Origin: Oceanihabitans sp. IOP_32
GTDB taxonomy: Bacteria > Bacteroidota > Bacteroidia > Flavobacteriales > Flavobacteriaceae
Length of the DNA: 64,000 nucleotides
Direction of reading: 5' to 3'
Assembly: GCF_009498295.1 (NCBI RefSeq)
Contig: NZ_CP040813.1
Location: forward strand, 2,735,001-2,799,000
The translations under genes and the position numbers were made by a program. Below, in pieces: positions 9,668 to 54,301 of this stretch (position 1 is the first letter of the stretch; each line of letters begins with the position of its first letter). A model generated the notes under the pieces. That model was not told where the DNA came from, made no database searches, and saw nothing but the letters and a program-made list of their open reading frames with translations.

Positions 9668-11395
9668 ATGCGAAAGCACAAAAAATATATTTTATTAGCC
9701 ATTGTTACTTTAAGTGTAACCACTGTTTTCTCTCAAATAAGAAAAAATGATACCATTAATACAGGTGTTGTAGATATCGTAAAACCTTACAAGCCAACTA
9801 TTTCTGATGCTTTTAAGGTTAAGGAAGTCCCACCTTTGGTAGATGAAGAAACGGCGACAAAAAAAGAACTTAAATATAATATTTTGTCATTTCCTGTAGC
9901 CTCAACATTTACACCAGCAAAAGGCAAGGCTGCGGTTGTAGAAAAAGCAAAACCCATAGAATTGTTCGATAATTATGCAACTTTGGCCGTTGGGACCTAT
10001 ACTACTATTTTGGGCGAAGTGTATTTAAATCATGCCCTTAGCAGAACTGAAAGTGTTGGGGGGTATTTAAGTCATCACTCATCGCAAGGTGGGATTGAAG
10101 GTTTAGCCTTCGACGATAATTTTTCGAGTACAAAGTTAAATGCTAAGTACTCGAACGAATTGAGAGATTTCGCTTGGCAGGTAGAAGGTGGTTTTCAACA
10201 TGATATGTTTAATTGGTACGGTGTGCCAGAATCTCAAATCACGGTAGCACAAGCAAATAGTATCGATGTCGATCATACATTTTATAGTGCGCATTTAGCT
10301 GGCGATATTACATTCGAGAATTCTTATATTAATTCAGCTAGTTTGTTATTAAGACATTTTGGAGATGATCAAGATTCTGAAGAAAACAGGTTTATAGCCA
10401 AAGCAAAAGTAGATGTTCCCATAAATAGCGAAGAAATCTCTACAGAGGTAAAGTTAGATTATATAGGAGGTACTTTTTACCGAGCTTACTCTGTAAACAC
10501 CCCGTTAGAACATCGCAATATTCATCTAGCGGTGTCACCAACCTATCAATTAAAACAAGATGATTTAACGGTAAATGTTGGGGCATCAGTATCTTATTTA
10601 AGAAATTTTGAAACTAAGGACAATAATTTCTATGTGTACCCCAATGTTACGGCAACCTATCGCTTGGTAAGTGATGTATTAATCGCTTACGGCGGAATTA
10701 CAGGCGAACTCATTCAAAATTCGTATTACGATTTTGCTTCAGAGAATCCATTTGTGTCGCCTACATTATTTGTCACGCCAACCGATCAACAATATAATGG
10801 CTACTTGGGGTTAAAAGGTAAAATAACTCGTAATTCAAGTTATAATATTAGTGCGAGCTATGTTGCTGAAAATAATAAAGCTCTAATCAGAAATAATGAG
10901 ATTAGTTTAACTACTCAAAATTATGCCTACGGAAATTCTTTTGGTACCGTATACGACGACGTAGAAACCTTTGGTATTGCTGGAGAAATTGCTATAGATG
11001 TCGCCAGAAACTTTAAAATGAGTGTAAAGGCCGAATATTTTAAATACAGCACAGATAATGAAGCCGAAGCTTGGAATTTACCCGAGCTAAAAGGCTCGTT
11101 GTTTTTAGACTATCAGGTTACCGAGCAAATTTTTGCTGGCGCGAATCTATTCTATGTAGGCGAGCGTAAAGATCAATTTTTCTTGAATGATGGTTTTATA
11201 TTTATAATGCCATCTACAGTGGTTTTAGAGAGTTATTTTGATGCCAATGCGCATGTAGGATACCATATAAACGATAAATTTTCGGTCTTTGCCAAAGCAA
11301 ATAATATAACCAATGAAGGCTATCAGAAATGGCAGAATTTCCCTGTGCAAAGTTTTCAGGTTTTGGCAGGTGCGACGTATAAGTTCGATTTCTAA
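9668..11395 (+). CDS. TonB-dependent-receptor-like outer membrane barrel
   Basis: A 575-residue outer membrane protein with a signal peptide (about residues 1-23, ending 'TTVFSQ'), then a segment with 'DIVKPYKPTISDAFKVKEVP', then alternating amphipathic beta strands to the C-terminus. The chain ends 'GATYKFDF' with the terminal aromatic typical of barrels inserted by the BAM complex, and 'VFAKANNITNEGYQKW' resembles the last strands of TonB-dependent receptors. It is shorter than most such receptors and I cannot see a complete plug domain, so energy-coupled transport is uncertain. It lies downstream of the large TPR protein and probably shares its transcript. Confidence 0.78.
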   Translation: MRKHKKYILLAIVTLSVTTVFSQIRKNDTINTGVVDIVKPYKPTISDAFKVKEVPPLVDEETATKKELKYNILSFPVASTFTPAKGKAAVVEKAKPIELFDNYATLAVGTYTTILGEVYLNHALSRTESVGGYLSHHSSQGGIEGLAFDDNFSSTKLNAKYSNELRDFAWQVEGGFQHDMFNWYGVPESQITVAQANSIDVDHTFYSAHLAGDITFENSYINSASLLLRHFGDDQDSEENRFIAKAKVDVPINSEEISTEVKLDYIGGTFYRAYSVNTPLEHRNIHLAVSPTYQLKQDDLTVNVGASVSYLRNFETKDNNFYVYPNVTATYRLVSDVLIAYGGITGELIQNSYYDFASENPFVSPTLFVTPTDQQYNGYLGLKGKITRNSSYNISASYVAENNKALIRNNEISLTTQNYAYGNSFGTVYDDVETFGIAGEIAIDVARNFKMSVKAEYFKYSTDNEAEAWNLPELKGSLFLDYQVTEQIFAGANLFYVGERKDQFFLNDGFIFIMPSTVVLESYFDANAHVGYHINDKFSVFAKANNITNEGYQKWQNFPVQSFQVLAGATYKFDF

Positions 11396-11444
11396 TGTCG
11401 TTACGAGGCGTGTAACAAGGTGCTAATCTTTTGAGCTAAACTAT

Positions 11445-11686
11445 ATTTTTATTCATTAATGTCCGACAAAAGACATAAGACCGCTTCGCTAATAGACATA
11501 AGAACCAAGACTTGACTCTAACTAACTGATAAACAGAAGTACTTTAAATTAACAAAATAGTTCCTTTAAATCTTAATAATTATTTCAAGTAAGCAAGGTG
11601 ACATTTTAAAAAACGTACAAAGTTCTTGATTTTAAAAGGATTGACAGCATTTTAATATTTTTAATCGGACACTAGTGATTTTTAAT
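11445..11686. mobile_element. 224-bp MITE-like element, copy 1, with target duplication
   Basis: The element proper is 11454-11677. It begins CATTAATGTCCGA and ends TCGGACACTAGTG, which are inverted repeats matching at 11 of 13 positions. It is flanked by near-identical 9-mers, ATTTTTATT (11445-11453) and ATTTTTAAT (11678-11686), 8 of 9 matching, as expected for an aged target-site duplication. It has no meaningful open frame. Copy 2 at 52876-53099 is the same length and differs at only 7 positions, all transitions. The layout is that of a non-autonomous element moved in trans by a transposase. IS4-like elements are a guess from the 9-bp duplication; no transposase gene is in the window. Confidence 0.82.
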
Positions 11687-11776
11687 TAAAAATTAGTTTT
11701 CTGATCTCATAAATAGAACATTTAATTTTAAACATTTTAATAAAGACCAAACATCGAGTAATTTTGTTCGTAACGG

Positions 11777-11820
11777 AGACCTAAAAGGTTTCAAAAACCT
11801 GTTAGGTCTGTCAGGTTTTT
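11777..11820. repeat. Palindromic CCTAA/TTAGG intergenic repeat
   Basis: AGACCTAAAAGGTTT (11777-11791) and AAACCTGTTAGGTCT (11795-11809) are complementary at 14 of 15 positions with a 3-nt loop. An overlapping alternative hairpin pairs AAAAACCTG (11793-11801) with CAGGTTTTT (11812-11820). A related palindrome occurs at 14235-14270. It could act as a terminator or REP-type element. Confidence 0.6.
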
Positions 11821-11877
11821 ATTATCGTGTAAATCGGTAGTGGTTAGTGCTCTAAAATAATGTTTATCATGTACTTA

Positions 11878-40564: not shown

Positions 40565-40801
40565 AAATTTTTTAATTCTAATTAAACAATGGTCGTTGTG
40601 TTGTGTGTAGTTGTTGTGTGTGACCAATGAAAAACTAATTATCTCGAATTTAATTCAAGATCTGCTTAATTATAAAAATACGCTGTTTAAAACTCTTGCG
40701 TTCGAGTGTTTTTTATTTGGGCGTTCCTTAAAGGCCGGGCTTTCCACTGTATCTTTTTTGCTTTTAATGGCAAAAAAGGATGCCGTATCAATCCCTAACG
40801 C

Positions 40802-40831
40802 AAAAACAAAAAAGAGGCTTTTAAAGCCTCT
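40802..40831 (-). terminator. Terminator between rpsO and pnp
   Basis: AGAGGCTTT (40813-40821) pairs with AAAGCCTCT (40823-40831). On the minus strand a T-rich tail follows (complement of 40802-40812). It begins 6 bp after the rpsO stop, so pnp expression must come by read-through or from its own promoter, for which I see no clear box in 40565-40801. Confidence 0.8.
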
Positions 40832-40836
40832 CTTTC

Positions 40837-41106
40837 TTATTTTCTTAAACCTAATTCTTTAATGATAGCACGATATCTTAAAATATCTTTCTTGGTTAGG
40901 TAATCTAATAGCGCACGACGCTTACCAACAAGCATTACTAAAGAGCGCTCGGTATTATAATCTTTACGATTGTTTTTTAAGTGCTCGGTTAAGTGGTTAA
41001 TACGTTGTGTAAATAACGCAATTTGTCCTTCTGCGCTGCCAGTGTCGTGCTTTCCTTTACCGTGTTTGGCAAAAAGCTCCTGCTTTTCTTCTTTTGATAA
41101 ATACAT
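40837..41106 (-). CDS. rpsO: 30S ribosomal protein S15
   Basis: An 89-residue protein from the ATG at 41106 ('MYLSKEEKQELF'), the exact usual S15 length. The in-frame start at 41163 lies upstream of the predicted transcription start. 'HGKGKHDTGSAEGQIALF' and 'SRxLVMLVGKRRALLDYL'-type blocks ('RSLVMLVGKRRALLDYL' here) mark the 16S rRNA-binding helices; S15 binds the central domain early in 30S assembly. It precedes pnp. A 5'-terminal hairpin in its leader may be a control element. Confidence 0.97.
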   Translation of the reverse strand: MYLSKEEKQELFAKHGKGKHDTGSAEGQIALFTQRINHLTEHLKNNRKDYNTERSLVMLVGKRRALLDYLTKKDILRYRAIIKELGLRK

Positions 41107-41138
41107 TCTAATATTATTGTAAATGATTGTTATGTACA

Positions 41139-41168
41139 TGGAAGCTTTTCTTCCAAGCGGCAAATATA
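41139..41168 (-). promoter_or_regulatory. rpsO promoter and 5'-terminal leader hairpin
   Basis: Minus-strand TATATTTG (41161-41168) is a perfect -7 box, placing transcription start near 41155. The mRNA would then begin directly with the stem-loop TGGAAG-AAAAG-CTTCCA (41139-41155, 6 bp) and a leader of about 50 nt before the ATG. The hairpin could be a target for S15 feedback or protect the 5' end. Confidence 0.5.
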
Positions 41169-52822: not shown

Positions 52823-52862
52823 AAAAAAAAACCAGTTAATTCATTAAAAACTAACTGGTTTT
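52823..52862 (-). terminator. aspC terminator, displaced by a MITE
   Basis: Minus strand: AAAACCAGTTA (52862-52852) pairs with TAACTGGTTTT (52838-52828), an 11-bp stem with a 13-nt loop and a T tail (complement of 52823-52831). It is now about 255 bp past the aspC stop; removing the MITE and one target copy would put it about 20 bp away. Confidence 0.78.
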
Positions 52863-52866
52863 ATAT

Positions 52867-53108
52867 ATTTCAATTCATTAATGTCCGACAAAAGACATAA
52901 GACCGCTTCGCTAATAGACATAAGAACCAAGACTTGATTCTAACTAACTGATAAACAGAAGTACTTTAAATTAACAAAATAGCTCCTTTAAATCCTAATA
53001 ATTATTTCAAATAAGCAAGGTGACATTTTAAAAAATGTGCAAAGTTCTTAATTTTAAAAGGATTGACAGCATTTTAATATTTTTAATCGGACACTAGTGA
53101 TTTCAATT
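52867..53108. mobile_element. 224-bp MITE-like element, copy 2, with perfect 9-bp target duplication
   Basis: The element proper is 52876-53099, with ends CATTAATGTCCGA and TCGGACACTAGTG. It is flanked by identical ATTTCAATT on both sides (52867-52875 and 53100-53108). It matches copy 1 (11454-11677) at 217 of 224 positions with no gaps. No transposase or long frame is present. It separates aspC from its terminator. The perfect duplication suggests it is the younger of the two insertions. Confidence 0.88.
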
Positions 53109-53116
53109 ATTACAGT

Positions 53117-54301
53117 CTAACTAAGCGCTTCTTTAATACGTTTTATCGCTTCTATAATCTGTTCTTGTGAGGCAGCGTAGGAGATGCGAATACAGTCAGG
53201 ATTTCCAAAAGCTTCGCCGGTTACGGTGGCTACAAGGGCTTCTTCTAATAAATATAATGAAAAATCGGTAGCATTCTCTATGGTTTTACCACGTAATGTT
53301 TTTCCGAAGTAATGCGATACATTAGGGAACACATAAAATGCGCCTTCTGGGGTATTGGTTTTAAAGCCTTCAATATCGTTTAATAAATTTAAAATTAAAT
53401 CTCGACGCACTTTAAACTCATCAATCATATATTGCACACGCGATGGCGGTTCGTTTAAAGCTGTAATTACAGCACGTTGCGCAATACAGTTTGTCCCACT
53501 GGTAATTTGGCCTTGCATTTTATTACAAGCACGAGCAATTTTTTCTGGAGCACCGATATAACCAACACGCCAACCCGTCATGGCAAATGCTTTAGACACA
53601 CCATTTACAGTAATGGTACGATGGTACATATCATCAAATTGGGCCATACTGGCATGATCTGCCACATAGTTTATATGCTCGTAAATCTCGTCTGAAACCA
53701 CATAGATATTCGGGTGTTTAATCAGTACATCGGCCAGGGCTCTTAACTCTTCTTTACTGTAAATAGAACCACTTGGGTTACAAGGTGAACTGTACCAAAT
53801 CATTTTAGTTTTTGGTGTAATGGCGGCTTCAAGTTGCTCAGCTGTCATTTTAAAATCGTTCTCGATAGTCGTTTTCACTTCTACTGGAACACCATCATTT
53901 AGCTTTACAATATCAGAATAACTTACCCAGTACGGACAAGGTAAAATAACTTCGTCGCCAGCATTAAGCATCACGGCAGCAACATTGGCTAAACTCTGCT
54001 TGGCACCAGTAGAAACAACTATTTGGGGTAGGGTATAAGTCAAGTTGTTATCACGTTTAAACTTTGTTATAATGGCCTCTTTAAGTTCGACATACCCATC
54101 AACGGGAGAGTACGAGTTGTAATTATCATTAATGGCTTGTATCGCAGCTTCTTTAATAAAATCTGGTGTGTTAAAGTCTGGCTCGCCAAGACTTAAACCA
54201 ATAATATCTTTGCCTTCACCTCTAAGCGTTCTAGCTTTAGCCGCCATGGCTAAAGTAGCAGAAGTAGCCATGTTTAAAATTCTGTCTGATAATAATTGCA
54301 T
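53117..54301 (-). CDS. aspC: Aspartate/aromatic aminotransferase (class I)
   Basis: A 394-residue PLP aminotransferase of the aspartate aminotransferase Ib type. Markers are 'GLSLGEPDFNTPDFI' (about 36), 'VVSTGAKQSLANVAAVML' (about 95), 'IWYSSPCNPSGSIYS' (about 168), 'VSDEIYEHINY' (about 201) and the PLP-lysine block 'VNGVSKAFAMTGWRVGY' (about 231-247). It most likely makes aspartate from oxaloacetate and glutamate, and may use other amino acids. It sits 28 bp after the fatty acid desaturase on the same strand; its 3' flank now carries MITE copy 2. Confidence 0.92.
   Translation of the reverse strand: MQLLSDRILNMATSATLAMAAKARTLRGEGKDIIGLSLGEPDFNTPDFIKEAAIQAINDNYNSYSPVDGYVELKEAIITKFKRDNNLTYTLPQIVVSTGAKQSLANVAAVMLNAGDEVILPCPYWVSYSDIVKLNDGVPVEVKTTIENDFKMTAEQLEAAITPKTKMIWYSSPCNPSGSIYSKEELRALADVLIKHPNIYVVSDEIYEHINYVADHASMAQFDDMYHRTITVNGVSKAFAMTGWRVGYIGAPEKIARACNKMQGQITSGTNCIAQRAVITALNEPPSRVQYMIDEFKVRRDLILNLLNDIEGFKTNTPEGAFYVFPNVSHYFGKTLRGKTIENATDFSLYLLEEALVATVTGEAFGNPDCIRISYAASQEQIIEAIKRIKEALS

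Follow-up and report, generated by a model that had tools for sequence, protein, structure and literature searches.

A dispersed MITE family in Oceanihabitans sp. IOP_32 that shares ends and 9-bp target duplications with IS4/DUF4372 insertion sequences

The nearest Bacteroidota cases of MITEs that we found in the literature are in Porphyromonas and Cardinium. BrickBuilt of Porphyromonas gingivalis resembles the element reported here in being a Bacteroidota MITE with tandem-repeat content. It differs in its 23-nt tandem repeats, its tabulated ends and a duplication length that varies between copies, according to PMC4596501, which also gives a MITE size range of 50-1000 bp. MITECca01 of Cardinium is likewise a Bacteroidota element of ~240 bp, mostly intergenic and present in many copies, but it derives from an IS982-family element still in 68 copies (PMC9769881). 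The strings flavobacteri, bacteroid and IS4 are absent from the main text of a review of MITEs in prokaryotes published in 2024 (PMC10969869), and passages of PMC12542641 and PMC13277301 mention MITEs only in other contexts. A literature search found no paper describing a Flavobacteriaceae MITE, which is weak evidence of absence given that most subscription papers were beyond its reach.

A further likeness is with IS4-family insertion sequences of the DUF4372 plus DDE_Tnp_1 type (NF033592), which agree with the element in their ends (12-13 of 13 at locus L089) and in 9-bp duplications. By contrast, the MITE has no transposase, measures 224 rather than ~1380 bp and has a left-arm core that is absent, at two or fewer mismatches, from the nine insertion sequences examined. 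The MITE family is new and its kind of element well understood.

We analysed a 64,000-nucleotide stretch of DNA (the window), positions 2735001-2799000 of the 3,475,698-bp single-contig host genome, in which two copies of the element lie (Table 1). We read both as members of a MITE family, non-autonomous and moved by IS4-family (DUF4372 plus DDE_Tnp_1) transposases, and give this reading a probability of about 0.86. The two near-identical, gapless 224-bp elements described in the first-pass annotation are borne out by direct comparison. The same annotation held that they differ only by transitions. This is true of the pair (7 of 7 differences), but the remark does not extend to the family since transitions and transversions are about equally frequent (54 and 57, with 8 indels) among the 27 closest copies; on these counts we also reject the idea that divergence by transitions alone points to special mutagenesis. 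Its claim of a 9-mer duplicate at each element stands for copy 2, whereas that of copy 1 falls one base short of an exact duplicate. The window copies share no flank beyond the 9-mers, where continued similarity had been named as an objection.

Table 1. Coordinates of the two window copies, their parts and the copy 2 site
Feature	Position	Strand	Remarks
MITE copy 1	11454..11677	+	224 bp, no ORF (stop codons in every one of the six frames); 217/224 identical to copy 2
MITE copy 2	52876..53099	+	224 bp; between aminotransferase gene and terminator-like stem
Left 9-bp target duplication, copy 1 (ATTTTTATT)	11445..11453	.	8/9 identical to 11678-11686
Right 9-bp target duplication, copy 1 (ATTTTTAAT)	11678..11686	.	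Paired with 11445-11453
Left 9-bp target duplication, copy 2 (ATTTCAATT)	52867..52875	.	9/9
Right 9-bp target duplication, copy 2 (ATTTCAATT)	53100..53108	.	9/9
Left terminal inverted repeat, copy 1, CATTAATGTCCGA	11454..11466	+	12/13 identical to right end of insertion sequence L089
Right terminal inverted repeat, copy 1, CACTAGTGTCCGA read inward	11665..11677	-	13/13 identical to left end of insertion sequence L089
Left terminal inverted repeat, copy 2	52876..52888	+	End-pattern match
Right terminal inverted repeat, copy 2	53087..53099	-	End-pattern match
Conserved left arm, copy 1	11467..11537	+	Conserved between genera; 7-bp periodicity
Conserved left arm, copy 2	52889..52959	+	From gapless comparison with copy 1
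Class I/II aminotransferase gene adjoining copy 2	53117..54301	-	PF00155, 5e-77
Terminator-like stem-loop, then T run	52832..52861	-	Read in sequence

The ends of the window copies are imperfect inverted repeats: CATTAATGTCCGA and, on reading the other strand inward, CACTAGTGTCCGA agree at 11 of 13 positions. An end pattern, CAYTARTGTCCGA, matches exactly at four places in the window, each an end of one of the two copies, and at six when up to two mismatches are allowed, against a chance mean of 2.9. Folding of the element is no better than that of shuffled sequences on the plus strand (z -0.85) and only slightly better on the minus strand (z -2.0; 6 of 200 shuffles as good). Around copy 1, positions 11300-11860 hold one promoter-like site where 2.3 are expected and no terminator-like site, so that we ascribe neither a promoter nor a terminator to this copy, and none of the three window matches of an Rfam search at the gathering score falls at either element. 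Elsewhere in the window the minus strand carries a Flavo-1 RNA (40729-40806) and an S15-Flavobacteria leader (41104-41168) some 300 bp apart, both ordinary.

A search of the whole genome for the 224-bp element, which the first-pass annotation had proposed, revealed a dispersed multi-copy family far beyond chance. The query matches at least 51 places in the host, of which 39 are dispersed and 12 belong to a single tandem array (perhaps a lower bound, 40 of 87 first-look candidates having been scored). A second subfamily, ~77% identical, adds seven places when used as the query, and one copy with an insert was recognised by its ends. For the host this makes no fewer than 47 dispersed copies or fragments, besides the array. 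The 27 closest copies are 94.6-100% identical to the query and depart from their own consensus by 1 to 9 changes each (mean 4.4 of 224). Their divergence is star-like: 42 of the 60 variable sites are singletons, and a few sites mark subgroups. From this identity of ~95% or more we read these copies as the apparent product of a recent burst; the older subfamilies probably record earlier bursts.

Some host loci depart from the standard form. At L043 (579-1010; host 763278-763709) the ends delimit a 432-bp copy whose middle is ~200 bp of other DNA and whose outer 9-mers are identical (ATTTAAAAT). The tandem array (L040, 7045-9037; host 1220044-1222036, within element matches that span 1220010-1222036) comprises 11.6 units of 172 bp of truncated MITE sequence, downstream of a 161-aa ORF whose end appears LysM-like. 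As to a phage or plasmid vehicle, the MITE has no match in phage and plasmid records, its end-plus-arm pattern has none in viral contigs, and the matches of the L089 transposase to plasmids (388 records) are all less than 60% identical.

Most copies are flanked by a target duplication of their own. Among the 40 copies with both ends recognisable (at least 10 of 13 at each end and a length below 260 bp, a filter passed by 40 of 46 processed copies), 37 have flanking 9-mers that match at 8 or 9 of 9 positions: 23 matches are perfect and 14 have one mismatch, while one further copy has two mismatches and two are unmatched (5/9 and 4/9). Offset controls at 9, 18 and 27 bp reach 8/9 in 0 of 40 copies, and after 1000 re-pairings of the flanks, left with right, the share reaching the duplication level averages 3% and never exceeds 13%. 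The count omits L039 (the same place as L046), the array L040, L047 and L050-L053. In the six copies that fail the end or length filter, the 9-mers match at 9, 9, 8, 6, 3 and 2 of 9 positions, the last value being that of L043, where the scan misplaced an end and the true outer 9-mers are the identical ones given above.

Placement, judged from ORFs rather than annotation in 43 of 46 copies (three failed the end-score filter), is intergenic. No ORF of more than 450 bp is overlapped by any of the 43; the neighbouring genes are tandem for 24 copies, convergent for 7 and divergent for 7, and 5 are undetermined. The annotation's classification as a MITE thus finds support, the elements being short, non-coding and intergenic, with terminal inverted repeats, duplications of fixed length (9 bp) and many near-identical dispersed copies, as prokaryotic MITEs have. 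Slippage or recombination does act on the elements, as the host array and a second one of three 253-bp units in genome G013 indicate. Nevertheless, spread of the copies by segmental duplication or gene conversion instead of transposition is the least probable of the explanations considered, for the dispersed copies have matching 9-mers next to unmatched offset flanks, and what the two window copies have in common stops at the 9-mer.

The annotation had further expected a parent transposase sharing the ends of the MITE. Such transposases exist in other genera, of the IS4/DUF4372 type, with nearly the same ends and with 9-bp duplications; in the host chromosome none was found. Searching 149 family genomes with the ends plus their neighbours (CAYTARTGTCCGRYWAAA) gave matches in nine, the host included; the reversed control matched once each in two genomes, so single matches are weak leads. 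Two of the 20 stretches retrieved hold a complete insertion sequence. That of L089 (1693-3075, 1383 bp, ends CACTAGTGTCCGA/CATTAGTGTCCGA) has one ORF of 404 aa and a perfect 9-bp duplication, ATAAAATAT, on both sides, and its ends correspond crosswise to those of the MITE (Table 1). The one in L088 (1700-3084, 1385 bp) has 9-mers matching at 8/9 and one in-frame stop. The L089 protein contains PF01609 (DDE_Tnp_1, 9e-26) and PF14294 (DUF4372, 5e-18) and belongs to the IS4 family by NF033592 (215 bits against a cut-off of 115); no solved structure matches it by sequence. The MITE shares the terminal sequence and 9-bp duplication of this group and encodes no transposase; as it has no ORF, we class it within the IS4/DUF4372 group solely as non-autonomous.

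Relatives of the L089 transposase (E<=1e-10) occur in 31 of 397 family genomes, with identities of 78% (L123), 72% (L125), 36% (L112), 31-33% (L105 and L106), 30% (L132) and 27% (L142). Perfect 9-mers border the insertion sequences of L089, L112, L123, L125, L132, L105, L106 and L142, whose ends are related (10-13 of 13 to the pattern used). When 17 transposase loci were scanned for ends, eight had ends with 8/9 or 9/9 duplications: L089, L104 (the L088 element), L123, L125, L132, L105, L106 and L142. The scan picked end pair and 9-mer jointly, which favours matching 9-mers, although a perfect 9-mer is unlikely by chance. The other nine loci lack ends with such duplications, and several are fragments or are cut by contig ends; L124 has both ends at 13/13 and no duplication. 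In genome G125, three IS4/DUF4372 copies are more than 99% identical, with identical 9-mers in L112 and unmatched ones in L117 and L120, a difference that recombination between the copies, or insertion lacking the usual duplication, could explain.

Majority letters in the first 13 columns are the same in 12 MITEs and nine insertion sequences, except at left column 6 and for a tie at right column 5. MITEs and insertion sequences were both located by their ends, so agreement of the ends is partly built in, that of duplication length less so. Ends and duplication length characterise much of the IS4/DUF4372 clade, and by these marks the MITE fits the clade. An alternative is that the MITE was moved by a transposase of a different family with similar ends and the same duplication length. 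We consider this unlikely: the close clade (L089, L088, L123 and L124) matches the end pattern at 12-13 of 13 positions and more distant insertion sequences at 10-12, and 9-bp duplications occur in the clade down to 27% transposase identity. What it has in its favour is that the searches brought up no parent whose interior resembles that of the MITE, that the host is without the IS4 type, and that the host was searched with three transposase queries only (PF14294, PF01609 and the L089 protein), one IS3 element being seen in passing.

That IS3-type element lies between MITE ends at host positions 3282480-3283952 and is parent-like by spacing, but it has a PF00665 integrase core and is inserted in a MITE copy, and we reject it as the parent. 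A second candidate, which we do not claim, is an origin of the MITE by internal deletion, from the right arm of the insertion sequence via AGCAAGGTG. This 13-bp word, the longest common to the MITE and insertion sequence interiors, is present in 6 of 12 MITEs and in 4 of 9 insertion sequence right arms. Its length falls short of significance, being attained in 2 of 60 permutations (the arms of the insertion sequences being permuted together), and the opposite orientation gives 12 bp. Between the ends, then, the MITE has no demonstrable sequence in common with any of the insertion sequences found.

Neither DUF4372 (PF14294) nor DDE_Tnp_1 (PF01609) has a match in the host chromosome at E<=0.001, and the L089 transposase has no relative there at E<=0.1. 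The host MITE therefore looks orphaned, its transposase missing from the chromosome, and mobilisation in trans is not visible in the host itself; we infer it from the ends common to the MITE and to insertion sequences of other genera. Under IS4/DUF4372 mobilisation, a transposase of the clade, now missing from the host chromosome, would have bound the MITE ends (CAYTARTGTCCGAYWAAA) and, after excising or copying the element, inserted it at a staggered cut of 9 bp in AT-rich DNA between genes. The parent would later have been lost, or may reside on DNA outside the assembly, and without the enzyme the host copies would now be fixed and decaying.

MITE and transposase tend to occur together. In the 298 genomes (G001-G298) taken as common to both searches, a DUF4372-type transposase is found in 7 of 16 genomes with a MITE-like match (E<=1e-5) versus 20 of 282 others (Fisher 1.5e-4), statistics that ignore relatedness and draft assemblies. 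Looser MITE matches (E<=1e-3) give 8 of 44 versus 19 of 254 (p=0.03), and close transposases only give 4 of 16 versus 7 of 282 (p=0.0015). In the other nine MITE-positive genomes (E<=1e-5), no DUF4372-type transposase reaches E<=1e-10.

Copy 2 lies 17 bp past the stop codon of the aminotransferase gene, ahead of the terminator-like stem. The stem starts 255 bases after the stop codon in the host, or 22 if the element and one 9-mer are removed; in five relatives measured, it starts at 27, 28, 28, 22 and 19 bases. On these distances (255 versus 19-28), the insertion of copy 2 appears to have separated the gene from its terminator. Of 40 genomes searched, 38, counting the host, have a match to the gene, and none of 29 relatives' loci, all in other genera, has a match to the element near it (1.5 kb on each side where the contig allows). 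The empty-site comparison is one of loci, the intergenic DNA being too diverged for comparison base by base.

Homologues occur in other Flavobacteriaceae. The whole 224-bp query matches 45 of 299 family genomes at E<=0.001, the host included, with two candidates scored per genome. At E<=1e-5 there are 26 matches outside the host: 24 fall within positions 1-99, and two, both in G013, span 1-224. Weaker ones (E 1e-5 to 1e-3) are scattered along its full length, some of them in the right half, and could be chance matches. In six other genera (G125, G088, G186, G116, G027 and G013), elements could be delimited that have 8/9 or 9/9 duplications. Flavivirga sp. 57AJ16, perhaps a member of one of these six genera, has such an element too, and the left end and arm are also present in a Lutibacter MAG.

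Across nine representatives from seven or eight genera, mean pairwise identity is 0.78 at the left end (1-14) and 0.77 at 211-224. It is 0.82 and 0.81 at 15-42, a value inflated at about 17-37 because the alignment was seeded by a pattern inside the arm or by BLAST, then falls from 0.67 to 0.56 at 43-84 and to 0.24 at 99-112. Elements entered the alignment only if they had a duplication of 8/9 or 9/9 (one of ten candidates, L055, gave no such element), and the search with the whole 224-bp query is the less biased support for arm conservation. The array in G013 (L096, 2200-2964) is of three head-to-tail MITEs with one 9-bp duplication between each and a period of 253 (244 + 9); it arose perhaps by slippage between two 9-mers, or by insertion at the element's own junction. 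This array, L172 and L165, in three genera, contain a GC-rich palindrome of ~20 bp (CCTGCC...GGCAGG type) within the arm or arm-like sequence, as if a second, REP-like mobile repeat.

The left arm consists of five heptads centred on AGA and interrupted by a CGCTNCGCT box, laid out as AAAAGAC ATAAGAC CGCTTCGCT AATAGAC ATAAGAA CCAAGAC and followed by TTGA...TAACTAACTGATAA. Its autocorrelation is highest at a shift of 7 in 11 of the 12 elements, with single-sequence p values from 0.001 to 0.15 that are not independent, given the relatedness of the elements. A conserved RNA in the arm was considered and rejected, with 0 consensus pairs in eight sequences and no Rfam match at the elements. The arm core pattern occurs in 11 of 199 family genomes, the host included, and the reversed pattern in none. 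Its 27 places outside the host give 26 loci: 14 have a left end of at least 10/13, and 12, some of them looking decayed, do not. Arm box and AGA heptads without recognisable ends lie in intergenic Flavobacteriaceae DNA at L061 (= L148), L066, L068 and L153; at L061 they adjoin, by eye, an inverted stretch of similar heptads.

Conservation of the arm across genera, including the 12 loci without a recognisable left end, together with 8/9 or 9/9 duplications in only 6 of the 26 loci (a scan without a random control), would suit an old, vertically inherited and immobile intergenic element, serving as a regulatory RNA or as a repeat that binds protein, with inverted ends that are there by accident. 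This is highly improbable. The duplications in 37 of 40 host copies refute it as a whole, the 29 relatives' loci are all without the copy 2 insertion, and the arm's lack of RNA pairs, the Rfam result and the folding scores reported above tell against it as well. All that remains of it is an additional role for the arm.

The arm is probably of help to the non-autonomous element, for instance as a binding site for the transposase or a host protein. A bolder proposal, which we hold to be possible though doubtful, is that the arm is a functional cis-acting, iteron-like module that Flavobacteriaceae non-autonomous elements acquired and that their IS4 parents lack. It would recruit the transposase or a host DNA-binding protein, raise mobility in trans, and have persisted in at least seven genera, during which time the middle of the element diverged until its similarity was near random.

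The elements described here add a Flavobacteriaceae-wide MITE family, tied to a transposase clade by its ends and duplication length. MITE copies can lengthen 3' untranslated regions, as at 52876-53099. A functional arm, if true, would explain how a MITE outlives and outspreads its parent, and it would make testable the long-standing question of why some non-autonomous elements outcompete their autonomous movers.
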